In this document: piece by piece, positions 6,732 through 29,348 of the stretch
How the letters are laid out: each line of letters starts with the position of its first letter
Position numbering within the stretch: position 1 is the first letter of the stretch
IMG/VR virus record: IMGVR_UViG_3300037042_000209
Coordinates: 1 to 30,850 of that record
Strand: one strand, 5' to 3'
Length of the DNA: 30,850 nt
Source of the DNA: a virus
The notes under the pieces: model-generated
Told to the model about the DNA's origin: nothing
Databases searched by the model: none
Seen by the model: only the letters and a program-made list of their open reading frames with translations
Made by a program: the position numbers and the translations under genes

Positions 6732-6960
6732 AAAACCAAGGCATGACACGCACTGGGAGGCTACAATCAACGGCTACCGAATTGGCGTGATGCGGGTTAT
6801 CAACAGCATCAACAAGGGCGAGGTGGAAGAGGAGGAGCTTGAGAAGCTAAACAATTTCGCCCAGTTCGCGCTTGCATTAATGGAAATATCCGGCTCAGAG
6901 AAGTGGGAACGAGCTAAGATGAATGCCGAGATGATGAACTACCTGAAAGAAAAGCCATGA
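6724..6960 (+). CDS. hypothetical small helical protein
   Basis: A 78-residue protein starting at ATG 6724, eight bases inside the previous gene. It has a basic start (MLKKPRHDTHW), a short strand (EATINGYRIGVMRVINSI) and two helices (VEEEELEKLNNFAQFALALM and KWERAKMNAEMMNYL). No known family. The stop overlaps the start of the next gene (ATGA), so translation is probably coupled. Confidence 0.65.
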   Translation: MLKKPRHDTHWEATINGYRIGVMRVINSINKGEVEEEELEKLNNFAQFALALMEISGSEKWERAKMNAEMMNYLKEKP

Positions 6961-7589
6961 GCTACGTCATTGCCTCGCTGCCGCCAATCAAATGCTTTGT
7001 CCGCAGGGAGTTCCTGTACAACCACGAGAAGGGGCATGGCGAGCTTGAGCCAGCGATCTGGGTGAGCATCAAAGCCCTGCGTGGTCAGGTGTTCCGTATA
7101 GAGTCTCTATTGCCCCGCTATGGCGCTTTGTACGACAAGCTACCCATACACGCCTATGTGTGGAAAGAAGGGCATGGTGACCTTCCTATCGATTTCCTAC
7201 AGCTATGGGACTGCATGGGCTACCGCTTTACTGTCCACGAGAAGATCGGCCTGCGGAACTTGGGCGTGAAATTCTTGGGCAAGGACAAACAATGGCATCA
7301 TGGCAACTACTTGTTTACGGTGGACTTCTGCGCTGATGGCATGGAGGTGGACACTGGATTCACTGAGCAGGCTGAGGAGCATAAGAGCTTCAATTTCATT
7401 AAGCTGGAGAACGGGCAGTTTGCCACGCAGCCGAACAACCGTTGCTTGTGGTATGACCAGAGCCTTGTGCCGAGTAAGGTAAAGTTCCCCGACTTCCAAG
7501 CGGCGAGGGATTTCTACACGGTTGACGGGTCGAGGAAGTGGGCTGCGGGCGGTGATTGGTTCTACAATATTGAAGAAAAAATCGACTAA
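6957..7589 (+). CDS. conserved phage protein of unknown function (210 residues)
   Basis: A globular protein starting MSYVIASLPPIKCFVRREFL and containing KGHGELEPAIWVSIKALRG, GALYDKLPIHAYVW and LQLWDCMGYRF. Later it has QWHHGNYLFTVDF, EEHKSFNFIKLENGQFATQP and NNRCLWYDQSLVP. I recognise this set of motifs from a widespread but unnamed protein of environmental phages. The many H, W and acidic residues could form a metal site, but no known catalytic motif is evident. It is the last gene of the coupled operon from 5610 and is followed by the 450-base non-coding region. Confidence 0.8.
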   Translation: MSYVIASLPPIKCFVRREFLYNHEKGHGELEPAIWVSIKALRGQVFRIESLLPRYGALYDKLPIHAYVWKEGHGDLPIDFLQLWDCMGYRFTVHEKIGLRNLGVKFLGKDKQWHHGNYLFTVDFCADGMEVDTGFTEQAEEHKSFNFIKLENGQFATQPNNRCLWYDQSLVPSKVKFPDFQAARDFYTVDGSRKWAAGGDWFYNIEEKID

Positions 7590-7600
7590 TTACAGCCTGT

Positions 7601-7622
7601 TTGTCAAATACTGAGTTACAAT
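7601..7622 (+). promoter_or_regulatory. possible promoter for the structured RNA region
   Basis: TACAAT (7617-7622) matches the -10 consensus at five of six positions and lies five bases before the first helix at 7628, so +1 would fall at the base of that helix. TTGTCA (7601-7606) is present but only ten bases upstream, too close for a normal -35. The call rests on the -10 and on the positional match to the cassette promoters. Confidence 0.4.
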
Positions 7623-7627
7623 TATTC

Positions 7628-8027
7628 GGTTGTCGCGGGCGAGAGCAGTACGAAGCTACCCGGGTGGATGACTGTAGACGCGACAACCAACACGCATGGG
7701 TATTGGAGCCTGAGTCCGCAAGACTTGGTAGGCTCGCCAAATGAGAGCCAGCAGTCCTAGGAAACTCTGGATGAGGCGAGCTAGATAGCCAGTACCCAGC
7801 CGTGTTGGTGTTGCTTGGTATTAACTTAGCCATCGGACTATAGACCCCGAGAGAAGCCGCACCAACAACCAAGACGCATGAGGATTGGGAGATGCACCTC
7901 AAGCTATGCTCCAGTTTACCCTTGTGGACTAACTGGGTACTAGTCCTCAGCCGTGTTGGTTTGAATGCGCTTGTGGGTAATGACCGGAGGGCAACCGTTC
8001 GGGGCTAAGAGCCAACAACCAAAACAT
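7628..8027 (+). ncRNA. candidate tandem structured non-coding RNA or structured leader
   Basis: No credible gene covers 7590-8039. Clear helices are visible. Helix a: GGTTGTCGCG (7628-7637) with CGCGACAACC (7679-7688), ten perfect pairs. Unit A: ACCAACACG (7686-7694) with CGTGTTGGT (7801-7809), internal loop CAT/AGC, then GGGTATTGG (7698-7706) with CCAGTACCC (7789-7797). Unit B: ACCAAGACG (7868-7876) with CGTGTTGGT (7952-7960), the same CAT/AGC loop, then GAGGATTGG (7880-7888) with CTAGTCCTC (7940-7948). Between units, GTTGGTG (7804-7810) can instead pair with CACCAAC (7860-7866). Three ACAACCAA repeats occur at 7683, 7865 and 8015. The region could be a free RNA or the leader of the gene at 8040. 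I match it to no known RNA class. Confidence 0.6.
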
Positions 8028-8039
8028 AAGGAGATTGCC

Positions 8040-8285
8040 ATGAGCGGCAAACTGAAGGCGAACTACCAGACAGGCGAAGGGCGGGTACTCCTGCCATTTG
8101 AGTTCCACGACGCTGATGCCAAAATCCGTGAGGCTTTGCTCAAGGACTGGATCAACGGTCTGATCGACGAACTGAATCTATGCATGATCCCAGCGAAGCC
8201 GCAGGAAGATGTTGCGGAACTGGAAGACATCCCGCTGCCCCCGCACGATAAAATTACACAGACGCAAGTAGAGGCCGATAAGTGA
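8040..8285 (+). CDS. hypothetical protein upstream of terminase
   Basis: An 81-residue protein. The start is ATG 8040, because AAGGAG (8028-8033) is six bases upstream; longer in-frame readings run into the structured RNA region. The core FEFHDADAKIREALLKDWIN followed by a helix and an acidic, proline-rich tail (EDVAELEDIPLPPHDK) suggests a small helical protein. No family recognised. It overlaps the next gene (GTGA) and begins the packaging region. Confidence 0.65.
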   Translation: MSGKLKANYQTGEGRVLLPFEFHDADAKIREALLKDWINGLIDELNLCMIPAKPQEDVAELEDIPLPPHDKITQTQVEADK

Positions 8286-9057: not shown

Positions 9058-9338
9058 CGGACGAGAAGATAGTCAGCCTATGGCTCAACTCTAACCATTG
9101 GGACATCACAGGCTTTAGCCGGACGATTGCTGACCTCCGCAGCTTCACCAGTACGGTAGTCAAGGCTGACCGTGAGGACGTTGCCCTGTTGGTTGAGCAG
9201 ATGGGCATCGAGGGCTACGGTACGCTGGCTATCGCTGCCGCCATCCGGTCAGGTGAGACCCCAAAGCCGGTGGAGACATCGTCGCCCGCCGAGAGCCGTC
9301 GCAAGGCGAACAGCCCTTGGACTGAGCCGGGATACTAA
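9054..9338 (+). CDS. small protein between terminase subunits
   Basis: A 94-residue protein starting at GTG 9054, overlapping the small terminase stop (GTGA), with a strong GGGAGGGG site at 9043-9050. A helical body (DLRSFTSTVVKADREDVALL, then YGTLAIAAAIRSGE) is followed by a disordered basic tail (ESRRKANSPWTEPGY). No known family. Its place between the subunits and the one-base overlap with the large subunit suggest a packaging accessory, by context only. Confidence 0.65.
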   Translation: MTDEKIVSLWLNSNHWDITGFSRTIADLRSFTSTVVKADREDVALLVEQMGIEGYGTLAIAAAIRSGETPKPVETSSPAESRRKANSPWTEPGY

Positions 9339-10804
9339 TGACTGACCTGAGCATCCTGAGTGACCCGGCAATTGTCGAGAAGTTCTCGATGCTGCCCCGT
9401 CCCCAGCAGGTTGCTTACAAGTGGCGCATGGAGTGGCTGGCAAAGGCTCACGCGCACCAGATCTTGCCGCCGGACGAGTGGTGGGCGATCTGGCTGCTGC
9501 TTGCAGGCCGTGGAGCCGGTAAGACCCGCGCCGCAGCCGAGCAGCTTGGCTGGTGGGCATGGACAGAGCCGAACACCCGCTGGCTGGTTGCCGCGCCGAC
9601 AAGCTCTGACGTATCGTCAGTCTGCTTTGAGGGTGAGTCCGGCCTCCTCAACGTGATCCCAGCGGATCTGATTTCAGACTACAAATCACAGAAGCAGGAG
9701 ATATACCTGATCAATGGATCGATGATTAAGGGCATCCCTGCATCCGAGCCTGAGCGGTTCCGAGGCCCACAGTTCCACGGCGGCTGGTTCGACGAGCTAG
9801 CAGCTTGGGACTACCTGCAAGAAGCGTGGGACATGATCCAGTTCGGTATGCGACTTGGCACAAGGGTGCGACAGATCGCCTCGACCACCCCGAAGCCCAA
9901 GGAATTGATCAAGCAGTTGATCAAGCAGGAGGGCAAGGACGTTGTCATCACCCGCGCCTCGACCTACGCCAACCTCGACAACCTCGCGCCCCAGTTCAAG
10001 GAGCAGATCCTCAAGTATGAGGGGACGAAACTCGGCAGGCAGGAGATTTACGCCGAGGTGATCAACCCTGAAGAGGACGGCATCATCAAGCGTAGCTGGA
10101 TCAAGGTATGGAAGGCTGACAAGCCGCTGCCTGAGTTTGAGTACATCATCATGAGCCTTGACACGGCGTTCACCGAGAAGACCGCAGACACCAAGGGCGA
10201 CCCCGACCCGAGCGCCTGCTCAGTCTGGGGCTATTTCAAGTATGACAAGAAGCCTGCCATCATCCTGCTTGACTGCTGGGAAGAGCATCTTGGCCTGCCT
10301 GACCTGATCACGAGGGTGAAGCAGGAGATGAACGTCCAGTACGGTCAGGGCGACATGAAGCCGGTGATCGCGCCGCTGGTTGGCCCCAAGTCATCCTATC
10401 TGGTCGGACGTAAGCCTGATCTGGTTTTGATCGAGGACAAGGGGTCAGGTATCAGCCTGCGCCAGATGCTGGCTCGTGAAGAGATCCTTGCTTACCCGTA
10501 CAATCCCGGTCGTGCTGACAAGCTTGCGCGACTGCATATGGTGTCGCACATATTTGCACATGGGTATGTTTGGGTGGTAGAGTCCGAGAAGCGACCGGGT
10601 CAGATCAAGACTTGGGCGGAGCCGCTTGTCTCGCAGCTTTGCAGCTTTACGGGTGAGAAGTCGATCAAGCACGATGACTTGATGGACTCGACTACGCAAG
10701 CGATCCGCTTCCTGAGCGACAAGAATATGCTGGCAATGACGGTTACGCAACCAGAGCCGTTGCCAAAGAGACAGAAGCAGTACACGAACCCCTATGCGAT
10801 TTAA
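9338..10804 (+). CDS. terminase large subunit (packaging ATPase and nuclease)
   Basis: This 488-residue protein drives DNA into the prohead and cuts it. In the ATPase domain, LLLAGRGAGKTRAAAEQL contains Walker A (55-63), Walker B with the catalytic acid is GGWFDELAAW (D152/E153), and the coupling motif is STTPKP (181-186). The C-terminal RNase H-like nuclease has its three acidic sites: MSLDTAF (D274), LVLIEDKGSG (E365/D366) and KHDDLMDS (D445/D446). Length and motif spacing fit the Terminase_6 type. It starts one base before the end of the previous stop (TAATG). The portal follows after nine bases, the canonical order. Confidence 0.96.
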   Translation: MTDLSILSDPAIVEKFSMLPRPQQVAYKWRMEWLAKAHAHQILPPDEWWAIWLLLAGRGAGKTRAAAEQLGWWAWTEPNTRWLVAAPTSSDVSSVCFEGESGLLNVIPADLISDYKSQKQEIYLINGSMIKGIPASEPERFRGPQFHGGWFDELAAWDYLQEAWDMIQFGMRLGTRVRQIASTTPKPKELIKQLIKQEGKDVVITRASTYANLDNLAPQFKEQILKYEGTKLGRQEIYAEVINPEEDGIIKRSWIKVWKADKPLPEFEYIIMSLDTAFTEKTADTKGDPDPSACSVWGYFKYDKKPAIILLDCWEEHLGLPDLITRVKQEMNVQYGQGDMKPVIAPLVGPKSSYLVGRKPDLVLIEDKGSGISLRQMLAREEILAYPYNPGRADKLARLHMVSHIFAHGYVWVVESEKRPGQIKTWAEPLVSQLCSFTGEKSIKHDDLMDSTTQAIRFLSDKNMLAMTVTQPEPLPKRQKQYTNPYAI

Positions 10805-13719: not shown

Positions 13720-14139
13720 ATGCTATTAGAAACGCCGTTGGAAATGGAATTTGACTCGCTAGAGGACGCTTTCCCAGAGGTTGAGTGTGGGATTGAGCCG
13801 ATGGGAAGCCGGGTGATTGTCCAGATCCGCAGAGCAAAGCAGCAAACAAAGAGTGGACTCTACATTCCAGAGGAAGCTCGCAAGACTGAGGCAAGCAACA
13901 CGCAAGTGGCGAAGGTTGTGGCGGTTGGTACGCTGGCATACCGGAACCGGAACACGATGGAGATGTGGCCTGAAGGCGCATGGTGCGCTGTTGGCGACTT
14001 TGTCCGCAGCCCAAAGTACGGCGGTGATCGCTGGACAGTCAAATTGGGTGACGAGGAGATCGAGTTTGCGATGTTTGATGACCTGAACATTCTTGGGCGC
14101 GTTAAAGGCGATCCACGGAAGATCAGAGCATTTATCTAA
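13720..14139 (+). CDS. GroES-like co-chaperonin (Cpn10 fold)
   Basis: This 139-residue protein matches the GroES fold. IEPMGSRVIVQIRRA corresponds to the first strand (GroES: PLHDRVIVKR). QTKSGLYIPEEARKTEAS is the mobile-loop region with a G-L-Y-I-P tip in place of GGIVL. QVAKVVAVGTLAYRN and GDFVRSPKYGGDRWTV continue the barrel. FAMFDDLNILGRV is the final dipped strand. Compared with GroES (97 residues) it has about 25 extra N-terminal residues and a short C-terminal tail. It should cap host GroEL to fold capsid protein, as gp31 does in T4. Its place between portal and scaffold supports that. Confidence 0.88.
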   Translation: MLLETPLEMEFDSLEDAFPEVECGIEPMGSRVIVQIRRAKQQTKSGLYIPEEARKTEASNTQVAKVVAVGTLAYRNRNTMEMWPEGAWCAVGDFVRSPKYGGDRWTVKLGDEEIEFAMFDDLNILGRVKGDPRKIRAFI

Positions 14140-26464: not shown

Positions 26465-26970
26465 TGCCCCTCGTACTAGACGGCACAAACGGAATTAGCG
26501 GAGTAGACGGAACTGTGTCTAACCCGTCTTATGAAGGCACAGACAGCAATACGGGCATCTTCTTCCCTGCTGCGGATACGATTGCCTTTGCCACGGGCGG
26601 CACAGAGGATATGCGTATCGACTCCACAGGGCGAGTTACGATACAAATGGCCTCCAATGGCGCACTGGTTGCTCTGACAAGCTCTGCTGCTTCAATTGCG
26701 GTCAATCTGAACCTAGCCAACAACTTCACGCATACTACGACGGAGAACACGACGCTAGCTAACCCGACCAACATGACGCCGGGTCAGTATGGTGTGATTG
26801 TGATTACGCAAGGCGCTACGCCACGCACGATGGCTTTTGGATCGTACTGGGACTTTTCTAATGGCGGTGTTCCAAGCCTGACTGCAACTGCTTCAGCGGT
26901 TGATGTTCTTGCTTTTTACGTTTCAAGCTCGACGAAGATTATTACCAACTTCTTGCCGGACGTTAAGTAA
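26464..26970 (+). CDS. tail fibre-like protein (168 residues)
   Basis: Starts MPLVLDGTNGISGVDGTVSN and continues NTGIFFPAADTIAFATGGTE with DMRIDSTGRVTI. This is a very common phage fibre opening in which a G-I-S-G-V loop and a GIF(F/Y)PAAD..A segment precede a GTEDMRI joint. The C-terminal part (NLANNFTHTTTENTTLANPT and GQYGVIVITQGATPRTMAFG) forms a small beta tip found at the ends of fibres. The stop overlaps the next start by one base. Confidence 0.78.
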   Translation: MPLVLDGTNGISGVDGTVSNPSYEGTDSNTGIFFPAADTIAFATGGTEDMRIDSTGRVTIQMASNGALVALTSSAASIAVNLNLANNFTHTTTENTTLANPTNMTPGQYGVIVITQGATPRTMAFGSYWDFSNGGVPSLTATASAVDVLAFYVSSSTKIITNFLPDVK

Positions 26971-29348
26971 TGAGCGTAATGATTGGAAGTTCATTGTTTC
27001 TCAATTCGGCTGGTTACCAGATCAGCCGTTCTGTGCGGCTGCGGTCAAGCGCGAGTGCGTATTTGAATCGGACGCTGACAACGCCCACCAGCGGTTCAAT
27101 CTGGACTTATTCGCTGTGGGTCAAGCGTGGAGCATTGAACAGCAATCAGCAACTACTGTCTGCTGGTGCGTCTGTATCAGATCAGATTTACTTTCAAGGT
27201 GGCGGCACAGACAAGCTGATCGTTTATCTCGGCGCATCGCAGACAACGACGCAGGTATTTCGCGACCCATCTGCTTGGTATCACTTTGTGTTTGCGGTGG
27301 ACACCACACAGGCAACCGCATCAAACCGACTGAAGATTTATCTCAACGGCAGTCAGATCACCGCATTTGATGCGACTGGCTACCCGACACAGAATTCAAC
27401 GACAAAGATCAACAGCGCAGTCGCGCATTACATTAGTCGGTATGCCGCGTCTGCATCTGATTATGTTGATGGCTACCTCACCGAGATCAACTTCATCGAT
27501 GGTCAAGCCCTGACACCAGCGTCATTCGGTCAAACTAATGGTACTACTGGCGTATGGTCACCTATTAAGTACACAGGCACATACGGCACAAACGGCTTCT
27601 ACCTGAATTTCAGCGACAATTCTGCGGCAACTGCTGCGGCTATCGGCAAGGACTACTCAGGCAACGGCAACAACTGGACACCGAACAACATCAGCGTGAC
27701 TGCTGGCGTGACGTATGACTCCATGCTGGATGTGCCGACGCAGTGGGCTGATGGCGGGAATGGGCGGGGGAATTACTGCACTGGTAACCCGTTAATTATG
27801 TATAACGGCGGCGGCGGTGCTGCCATCATCCCCAAGAACGGCAACCTTGATTTAATCGGCGGCGCTGGTTGGGCTATGGTTGGTTCAACAATCGCCGTAT
27901 CGACGGGTAAGTGGTACTGGGAGGCTACGTTTTTTAAACCCGGTAGCGGCGATGGTGTGCTTGGAATACATAAATCGAATACTTCATTATTTCAAATTGT
28001 TGGTTATTCTGGCGATCCAAACGGTTATAGTTACGCAGCAAATGGAAATAAACTAAACAACAGCACTGGCGTTGCCTATGGCGCAAGTTATACAAATGGC
28101 GATGTTATTGGTGTTGCGCTTGATTTAGACGCTGGAACGTTGACGTTTTACAAAAACAACACTTCTCAAGGAATAGCGTTTTCAAGTTTGTCTGGTGAAT
28201 TTTTCCCTGCCTTTTCTTCAGAGACAGCATACTTTCAAGCCAACTTCGGTCAGCGCCCCTTCACCTACACACCACCCACAGGCTTCAAAGCACTGAACAC
28301 GCTGAACCTGCCGACACCGACGATCCTGAAGGGCAATCAGTATTTTGATGTAAATCTGTGGACGGGTGACCAGTTGGCAAGAACCATCACTAATTCTGGT
28401 GGAATGCAGCCTGACTTCCTGTGGACGAAATGCCGCAGTTTCGCAGAAAGTCACCGTTTGAGCGATTCTGTTCGCGGTGGTAATGGTACTGTTTTGGGGA
28501 CTTTGTCGTCGAACTCTACAGACGCTGAAGCGTTCGACACCGATGTGACCGGGTTTACCAGTAGCGGTTTTAATATCCGTGCGGGAACCAACACGCCCAA
28601 CGTCACAGGACGCACCTACGTCGGCTGGACTTGGCAAGCTGGTGGTGCAGCGGTGACAAACACTGCTGGGAGTATTACATCACAAGTATCCGCTGGTGGC
28701 ACTCAAGGTTGTAGTGTCGCTACTTTTACATCAACTGGAGCGTCAGCTACTGTTGGTCATGGTCTTGGTGTTGCTCCAAGTATGATTATTTTGAAGTCTA
28801 GAAATAACATATCTGGGTGGAACAGTTTTCACATCAGCCTTGGCAACACACAGCAAATCAACTTGCAATCCACTGCCGCCGCAACATCAAGCATTGATTG
28901 GTGGAGAAACACCAGTCCAACATCAACTGTGTTTACTATTGGCGCAAATTTTCCCAATACATATACATGGGTTGCTTATTGTTTTGCTCCTGTCGCGGGC
29001 TTTAGCGCATTCGGCAGCTACACAGGCAACGGCAGCGCGGATGGGCCGTTTGTGTTCTGCGGGTTTAGGCCGAGGTTCATTCTAATAAAAGAATCAACTC
29101 CGAATGCTAGAGGATGGCGCATTTTTGATACCGCTAGAAGTCCATTTAATCAAGCTGGTTTAACTTTGTCACCTAACGCCGCCGATGTTGAAGACACTGG
29201 TTCAGGTTTGTACAACCAAATGGATATATTGTCGAATGGCTTTAAGCTAAGAGCAAGCACAAACTCTGAACCAACAAATGAAAGCGGAGCAACCTATATC
29301 TTTGCTGCCTTCGCCGAACACCCATTTAAGAACGCACTAGCGAGGTAA
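26970..29348 (+). CDS. LamG + SPRY + DUF7483-like tail protein
   Basis: A 792-residue modular protein. At about 20-185 is a LamG/concanavalin-like domain (VRLRSSASAYLNRTLTTPTS, SIWTYSLWVKRG, and DYVDGYLTEINFIDGQALTP). At about 297-437 is a SPRY/B30.2-like domain (VSTGKWYWEATFF, GVALDLDAGTLTFYKNNTS, FFPAFSSETAYFQANFGQRP). From about 455 to the end are two DUF7483-like repeats of the type PDFLWTKCRS and MIILKSRN/FILIKEST. Such proteins bind polysaccharide or protein surfaces, so this is probably the main adhesin or a fibre-distal protein. It is the longest tail gene here. Confidence 0.8.
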   Translation: MSVMIGSSLFLNSAGYQISRSVRLRSSASAYLNRTLTTPTSGSIWTYSLWVKRGALNSNQQLLSAGASVSDQIYFQGGGTDKLIVYLGASQTTTQVFRDPSAWYHFVFAVDTTQATASNRLKIYLNGSQITAFDATGYPTQNSTTKINSAVAHYISRYAASASDYVDGYLTEINFIDGQALTPASFGQTNGTTGVWSPIKYTGTYGTNGFYLNFSDNSAATAAAIGKDYSGNGNNWTPNNISVTAGVTYDSMLDVPTQWADGGNGRGNYCTGNPLIMYNGGGGAAIIPKNGNLDLIGGAGWAMVGSTIAVSTGKWYWEATFFKPGSGDGVLGIHKSNTSLFQIVGYSGDPNGYSYAANGNKLNNSTGVAYGASYTNGDVIGVALDLDAGTLTFYKNNTSQGIAFSSLSGEFFPAFSSETAYFQANFGQRPFTYTPPTGFKALNTLNLPTPTILKGNQYFDVNLWTGDQLARTITNSGGMQPDFLWTKCRSFAESHRLSDSVRGGNGTVLGTLSSNSTDAEAFDTDVTGFTSSGFNIRAGTNTPNVTGRTYVGWTWQAGGAAVTNTAGSITSQVSAGGTQGCSVATFTSTGASATVGHGLGVAPSMIILKSRNNISGWNSFHISLGNTQQINLQSTAAATSSIDWWRNTSPTSTVFTIGANFPNTYTWVAYCFAPVAGFSAFGSYTGNGSADGPFVFCGFRPRFILIKESTPNARGWRIFDTARSPFNQAGLTLSPNAADVEDTGSGLYNQMDILSNGFKLRASTNSEPTNESGATYIFAAFAEHPFKNALAR

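Follow-up and report, generated by a model that had tools for sequence, protein, structure and literature searches.

Tandem arrays of two alternating, putatively RNA-forming hairpin domains recur among phage genomes

We analyzed a 30,850-nucleotide stretch of DNA (the window), spanning positions 1 to 30,850 of the IMG/VR virus record IMGVR_UViG_3300037042_000209, which contains helicase, terminase, portal, and head genes. Positions 7628-8016 of the window hold two RNA domains that alternate in a tandem array; we call them hairpin I and hairpin II. The array and its immediate surroundings contain the following features:

7617-7622, + strand: -10-like TACAAT, five bases 5' of the opening helix
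7628-7688, + strand: opening hairpin GGTTGTCGCG...CGCGACAACC of 10 bp, 7628-7637 pairing with 7679-7688
7687-7808, + strand: hairpin I copy A, with an insert of ~84 nt; covariance-model match
7804-7866, + strand: hairpin II copy A, GTTGGTG (7804-7810) with CACCAAC (7860-7866)
7867-7868, + strand: linker AA, after CACCAAC and before the next hairpin I
7869-7959, + strand: hairpin I copy B, with outer strand CCAAG; covariance-model match
7955-8016, + strand: hairpin II copy B, GTTGGTT with AGCCAAC
8017-8039, + strand: AACC tail and leader of the downstream gene, with the AAGGAG ribosome site at 8028-8033
8040-8285, + strand: downstream ORF of 81 aa
8533-9057: small terminase gene, downstream of the ORF at 8040-8285
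9338-10804: large terminase gene, downstream of the small terminase gene

An earlier note on this DNA had read the 450 bases before the gene at 8040 as a region without a gene, holding two helical units of a phage small RNA or structured leader. Both of its ACCAA-N-ACG/CGTGTTGGT outer helices are present, and the inner helices that it set apart (GGGTA/TACCC and GAGGA/TCCTC) indeed differ at two positions altered on both strands. The CAT/AGC internal loop also exists, but a 2x2 CA/GC loop with an adjoining U-A pair describes it better. We likewise found the three CAACCAA repeats that it listed, the third of which extends into the AAGGAG ahead of the gene at 8040, and TACAAT at its place five bases ahead of the 10-bp opening helix. 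The earlier note overlooked a second domain, tRNA-derived members, and module shuffling: the stretches between and after its units are second hairpins, not spacers.

In a folding check, the 456 bases at 7590-8045 were more stable than all 100 of 100 dinucleotide shuffles (z = -3.45). ARAGORN detected no tRNA genes in the array region of the window, and searches of this region against PHROGs and Pfam returned nothing; the ORF at 8040 also had no PHROG or Pfam match. Rfam gave no match in the region, in agreement with the proposal that the motif lies outside known RNA classes, and an E-value search yielded only a chance snoRNA match on the other strand. Further contigs and loci are identified below by L numbers. 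The opening hairpin is identical in L002 and takes a covarying form, GGTCATTGCA/TGCGATGACC, in L035. In hairpin I copy B, the outer CCAAG faces GTTGG with one G-G mismatch, and at the place of hairpin II copy B, L002 carries AACCAAC, an A-U pair replacing G-U.

Starting from loci around relatives of the small terminase, we found the same unit as in the window upstream of the terminase in several phages. A strict one-arm pattern, consisting of the right arm only and allowing any base at its three variable positions, matched at least 120 IMG/VR contigs, and among the matches listed a matching left arm lay beside 124 of 138 right arms. The matches represent at least 125 non-redundant loci. We estimate a total of about 480 contigs, a rough figure scaled from two rare variants that full scans recovered in 11 and 13 contigs, compared with 3 and 3 among the at least 120 listed. 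Across 84,980 bacterial and archaeal species, with one genome each, a single contig matched a two-armed pattern: a Halothiobacillus MAG contig (L206:6129-6216), without a hairpin II partner. We read this contig as prophage-like, with the match beside a short Arc-like repressor gene. The near-absence from cellular genomes indicates that the element belongs to phages. Blastn searches of named phages with the window or with L130/unit sequences gave chance matches only, and the relatives MW202545, GB2A, and Strzyga had no model match within the stretches fetched. Rfam 15 covariance models run on arrays from 12 sources detected only two ordinary tRNAs at gathering score.

Hairpin I has a constant frame, ACG-CA-UGGGGAUUG...insert...CAGUCCCCA-GC-CGU, which includes three variable base pairs. 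When arms were selected from sequence alone, 115 of 120 triplets were fully paired, whereas 2000 shuffles averaged 70 and reached 80 at most; this selection makes for a cleaner test than an alignment of 64 units chosen partly by pairing, in which both sides had changed in 27 cells, against 6.6 after shuffling (A4 score 0.138 versus 0.090). We also performed a blind test on 17 contigs fetched later solely for the right-arm triplets ACC or CGC. Sixteen of these had a left arm, and 14 of the 16 new hairpins carried the compensating triplet, though GGG is the usual one. Among variable-pair cells, G-T outnumbered A-C by 26 to 3, and this excess indicates that the strand reading toward the terminase genes is the folding strand. 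A covariance model (R1) also scored the + strand far above the - strand: it found unit A, which was outside its training set, at 54.1 bits (E = 2.7e-15) and unit B, which was in the training set, at 56.3 bits, while the next + strand match elsewhere in the window had an E-value of 2.8.

Open frames remained close to shuffled levels in both hairpins, bearing out the earlier report of no gene in the 450 bases, and the open-frame test revealed no conserved protein-coding frame. The conserved arms probably account for the single excess (49 versus 35). On the strength of these comparisons, there is a strong case that the region encodes a structured RNA. T-arm-like hairpins flush with the stem occurred in 15 of 105 hairpin I copies and in 16 of 105 shuffled ones, and we therefore rejected the idea that hairpin I in general is a tRNA. 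T-arm-like stretches are present in hairpin I of L182 and L198.

Hairpin II consists of a 7-bp stem, GUUGGUG...CACCAAC, followed by AAC; in 66 of 93 cases the bases 3' of this stem are AACC or AACT. When partners were identified from sequence alone, stem position 7 was paired in 65 of 73 copies (shuffle mean 47, maximum 56). The Rfam tRNA model RF00005, whose gathering score is 29, matched hairpin II in L160 (44 bits), L170 (40 bits), and L120 (34 bits), and the model ends fall exactly on GUUGGUG...CACCAAC-A, with CACUAAC in L170 and CUCCAAC in L120. L160 has 54 nt where the tRNA model has 18, L170 has 42 nt where it has 11, and L120 combines a short anticodon loop with an enlarged D loop; none of these three has a decoding anticodon arm with a 7-nt loop. 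These matches clearly point to a tRNA origin for some hairpin II bodies. A T-arm-like hairpin is absent from 57 of 93 hairpin II bodies, and the two bodies in the window do not resemble tRNAs and have no RF00005 match. Hairpin II is thus best described as an acceptor-like slot for varied bodies, some of them tRNA-derived.

Compared with tRNAs and phage tRNA arrays, hairpin II shares an acceptor-like stem of 7 bp with an A after it; the D and T arms are real in some copies, and true tRNAs follow some arrays. In contrast to tRNAs, the anticodon arm is replaced or enlarged or the D loop is enlarged, most bodies are not tRNA-like, the tail is AAC(C/T) rather than CCA, and hairpin II alternates with hairpin I. 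In one subtype, D-like and T-like arms have complementary loops (GCUGA/UCAGC, ACUGA/UCAGU). D/T loop kissing as a feature of all hairpin II copies was rejected (seen in 5 of 32; permutations gave a mean of 1.5 and a maximum of 5). Loci with GTTGGGAAAGC...GCGAGTACCAAC, including L001, carry a hairpin II subtype with a GAAA/GAGUA internal loop, which resembles the loop E (sarcin-ricin) motif.

Hairpin II opens with GUUGG, and these five bases double as the 3' strand of the hairpin I outer helix. Because this sequence is common to both hairpins, the two helices compete. The 5-nt outer strand of hairpin I matches GUUGG with at most one mismatch in 116 of 119 units (none in 42, one in 74), where nearby sequence gives an expectation of 17.5%. 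Computed energies of the two states, which ignore tertiary contacts, differ by a median of -0.3 kcal/mol and favor hairpin II in 42 of 90 modules. This near-balance in the folding model suggests a switch, or a hand-over during transcription, between hairpin I and hairpin II.

In five phages, one family of hairpin I inserts precedes a different hairpin II family each time, and the unit A insert of the window occurs in four contigs (the window, L002, L175, and L187) with four different partners. Such identical inserts with different neighbors indicate that modules are shuffled between phages. In L002, the unit A insert of the window is joined directly to hairpin II copy B of the window, a layout suggestive of the loss of one module through recombination in the shared CAGCCGTGTTGGT. 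A MAFFT alignment of L001-L003 with the entire region put modules in the wrong place, and we relied on it for the region ends only. L002 has no PHROG 3704 ('ferredoxin') gene at the place where the window carries one just upstream of the array (6957-7589), and its homology to the window starts at about position 7603.

In each of the 23 long contigs that had a match, out of 25 examined, the copies lie in one place; one long contig also has a match with two mismatches on the opposite strand, within 100 bp. Among downstream families the terminase large subunit is the commonest, followed by portal, and some arrays are followed by helicase, polymerase, or primase genes. The loci are mostly close to terminase or portal genes, the recurrence that the earlier note had named as support, but sometimes close to replication genes, and the array is not terminase-linked in every phage. 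Identity among downstream proteins falls to 11% in a mixed alignment, and the array lies on the strand of the downstream gene in most loci. Recurrence, covariation, and this position before terminase genes support the original reading of a phage small RNA or structured leader. In about nine loci, tRNA genes lie close behind the last unit. A tRNA-Met(CAT) follows shortly after the last unit in L092, L130, L138, L187, L192, L200, and others, sometimes accompanied by tRNA-Asn or tRNA-Pro.

Hexamers resembling TATAAT (at least 5 of 6 bases) peak 5-9 nt before the first hairpin, with 12 counts in 26 loci and at most 1 count at any other distance, and L035 keeps TTACAAT at the position of the window's TACAAT. 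In the window, we found no convincing -35 element and no sigma-70 pair at TACAAT. Judging from this spacing, the RNA likely starts near 7628, at the first hairpin, from its own -10-type promoter, with the opening hairpin (7628-7688) as its likely 5' end. At the other end, a ribosome site and start codon follow the terminal hairpin II within 75 nt in 34 of 74 cases (median 23 nt). Intrinsic terminators lie directly after 4 of 71 arrays (5.6%, versus 1.3% in controls), a weak association. The RNA probably stops at a terminator or else continues into the following gene or tRNA.

We consider it rather probable that the arrays represent, as a whole, a structured noncoding RNA family outside Rfam, built as a modular two-domain array. 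That the array mimics tRNA, and what such an RNA would do, is more tentative. One possible role is modular display, in which two constant frames, one of them related to an acceptor stem, would hold exchangeable inserts, the modules would act as two-state switches, and shuffling would probably stem from conflict with host RNA- or tRNA-directed defense. We regard as doubtful our own proposal that the array is a shuffled, tRNA-mimicking RNA handled by host tRNA enzymes or serving as a decoy. Under this proposal, hairpin I would hold the GUUGG strand until CACCAAC has been made, whereupon the tRNA-like domain would form. Host tRNA enzymes, RNase P first, are predicted to bind or cut at the junction between CCGU and GUUGGUG, as the geometry suggests. 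The varied bodies would then be decoys or targets in a conflict with tRNA-directed host defenses, and such a conflict would favor shuffling. Phage tRNAs are reported to counter tRNA-cleaving defenses (PMC13096335), and RNase P processes phage M3 RNA and C4 RNA (PMC11143913). Handling by host RNase P is thus reported for the P1/P7 C4 antisense RNA and M3 RNA, and only proposed for the array; we liken them to it from their naming as RNase P substrates in the literature.

The main rival is a structured 5' leader and processing signal of the late operon, which within the downstream mRNA would protect the 5' end or serve as a cleavage site for RNase P or RNase III, setting expression of the packaging genes. 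The closely following ribosome sites and start codons, the prevalence of the terminase large subunit downstream, and the shared strand all fit such a leader, yet some arrays end at an intrinsic terminator or lead to tRNAs, the downstream genes vary, and neither exchangeable inserts nor tRNA-derived bodies are needed for a simple leader; we judge it unlikely on balance, without dismissing it. GOLLD and ROOL, large and elaborate phage-encoded RNAs often found near tRNA islands (PMC12286853), come nearest to the array in spirit, as large structured phage RNAs sometimes next to tRNAs. That the array is likewise an architectural RNA forming multimers or particles seems improbable: it too is phage-encoded, elaborate, and adjacent to tRNAs in some loci, but there is no Rfam covariance-model match, its length follows the number of modules, and its inserts are freely exchanged along the chain in place of a single conserved fold.

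Two further explanations would have the element act as DNA. Integron attC sites have the boxes RYYYAAC...GTTRRRY. A site-specific recombination element that resembles an attC cassette site and folds in the form of single-stranded DNA would share with the array an imperfect inverted repeat of similar size, conserved ends, and a variable center, and the module-sized difference between the window and L002 and the shuffling of modules would suit it. However, the commonest 3' sequence, GTTGGTG, misfits GTTRRRY, the array is almost absent from bacterial genomes, no integrase is among the most frequent neighbor families, and the tRNA-derived domains and promoter placement point to RNA, so that we regard this explanation as very improbable. 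A mobile hairpin element of the MITE or IS200 type spreading as DNA would also have conserved ends and variable centers, but the single locus per contig, the lack of dispersed copies, and the strong compensatory changes largely refute it, leaving it hardly any credence. We also rejected a packaging (cos/pac) site, since the array is not always beside terminase and its strand bias and tRNA-derived bodies point to RNA, as well as a protein-coding region, given no conserved open-frame signal, and a known RNA family, given the negative Rfam results.

Returning to the modular, putatively tRNA-mimicking RNA family, we found no description of this RNA in the open literature, which was the scope of our search. 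Within that literature we rate the architecture, which has neither a decoding anticodon arm (the test for a tRNA) nor an attC box, as new. An RNA family of several hundred phage genomes, by our estimate, and without an Rfam entry would add substantially to phage biology. Exchangeable inserts and tRNA-derived domains such as those of the array are as expected of a fast-evolving conflict element, and the array would provide a natural case of modular RNA evolution via recombination. It also makes clear predictions for the bench, namely the promoter, the 5' end, the RNase P site, and the bistable fold.

We made several further observations on genes in and around the arrays. An ORF beginning MKKIVRIYESNFRDAAASLRRMADDIEAGSYGEVHGVAV lies inside the array in L114, on the - strand between hairpin I units, and in L116; it is apparently real, so that arrays can seemingly carry genes. 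Among its head genes, the window encodes a GroES-like co-chaperonin (13720-14139; Pfam Cpn10, E = 1.9e-10), and a chaperonin 10 gene is annotated at a comparable position in MW202545. A large protein encoded at 26970-29348 of the window contains SPRY and DUF7483 domains and is likely a tail or receptor-binding protein.
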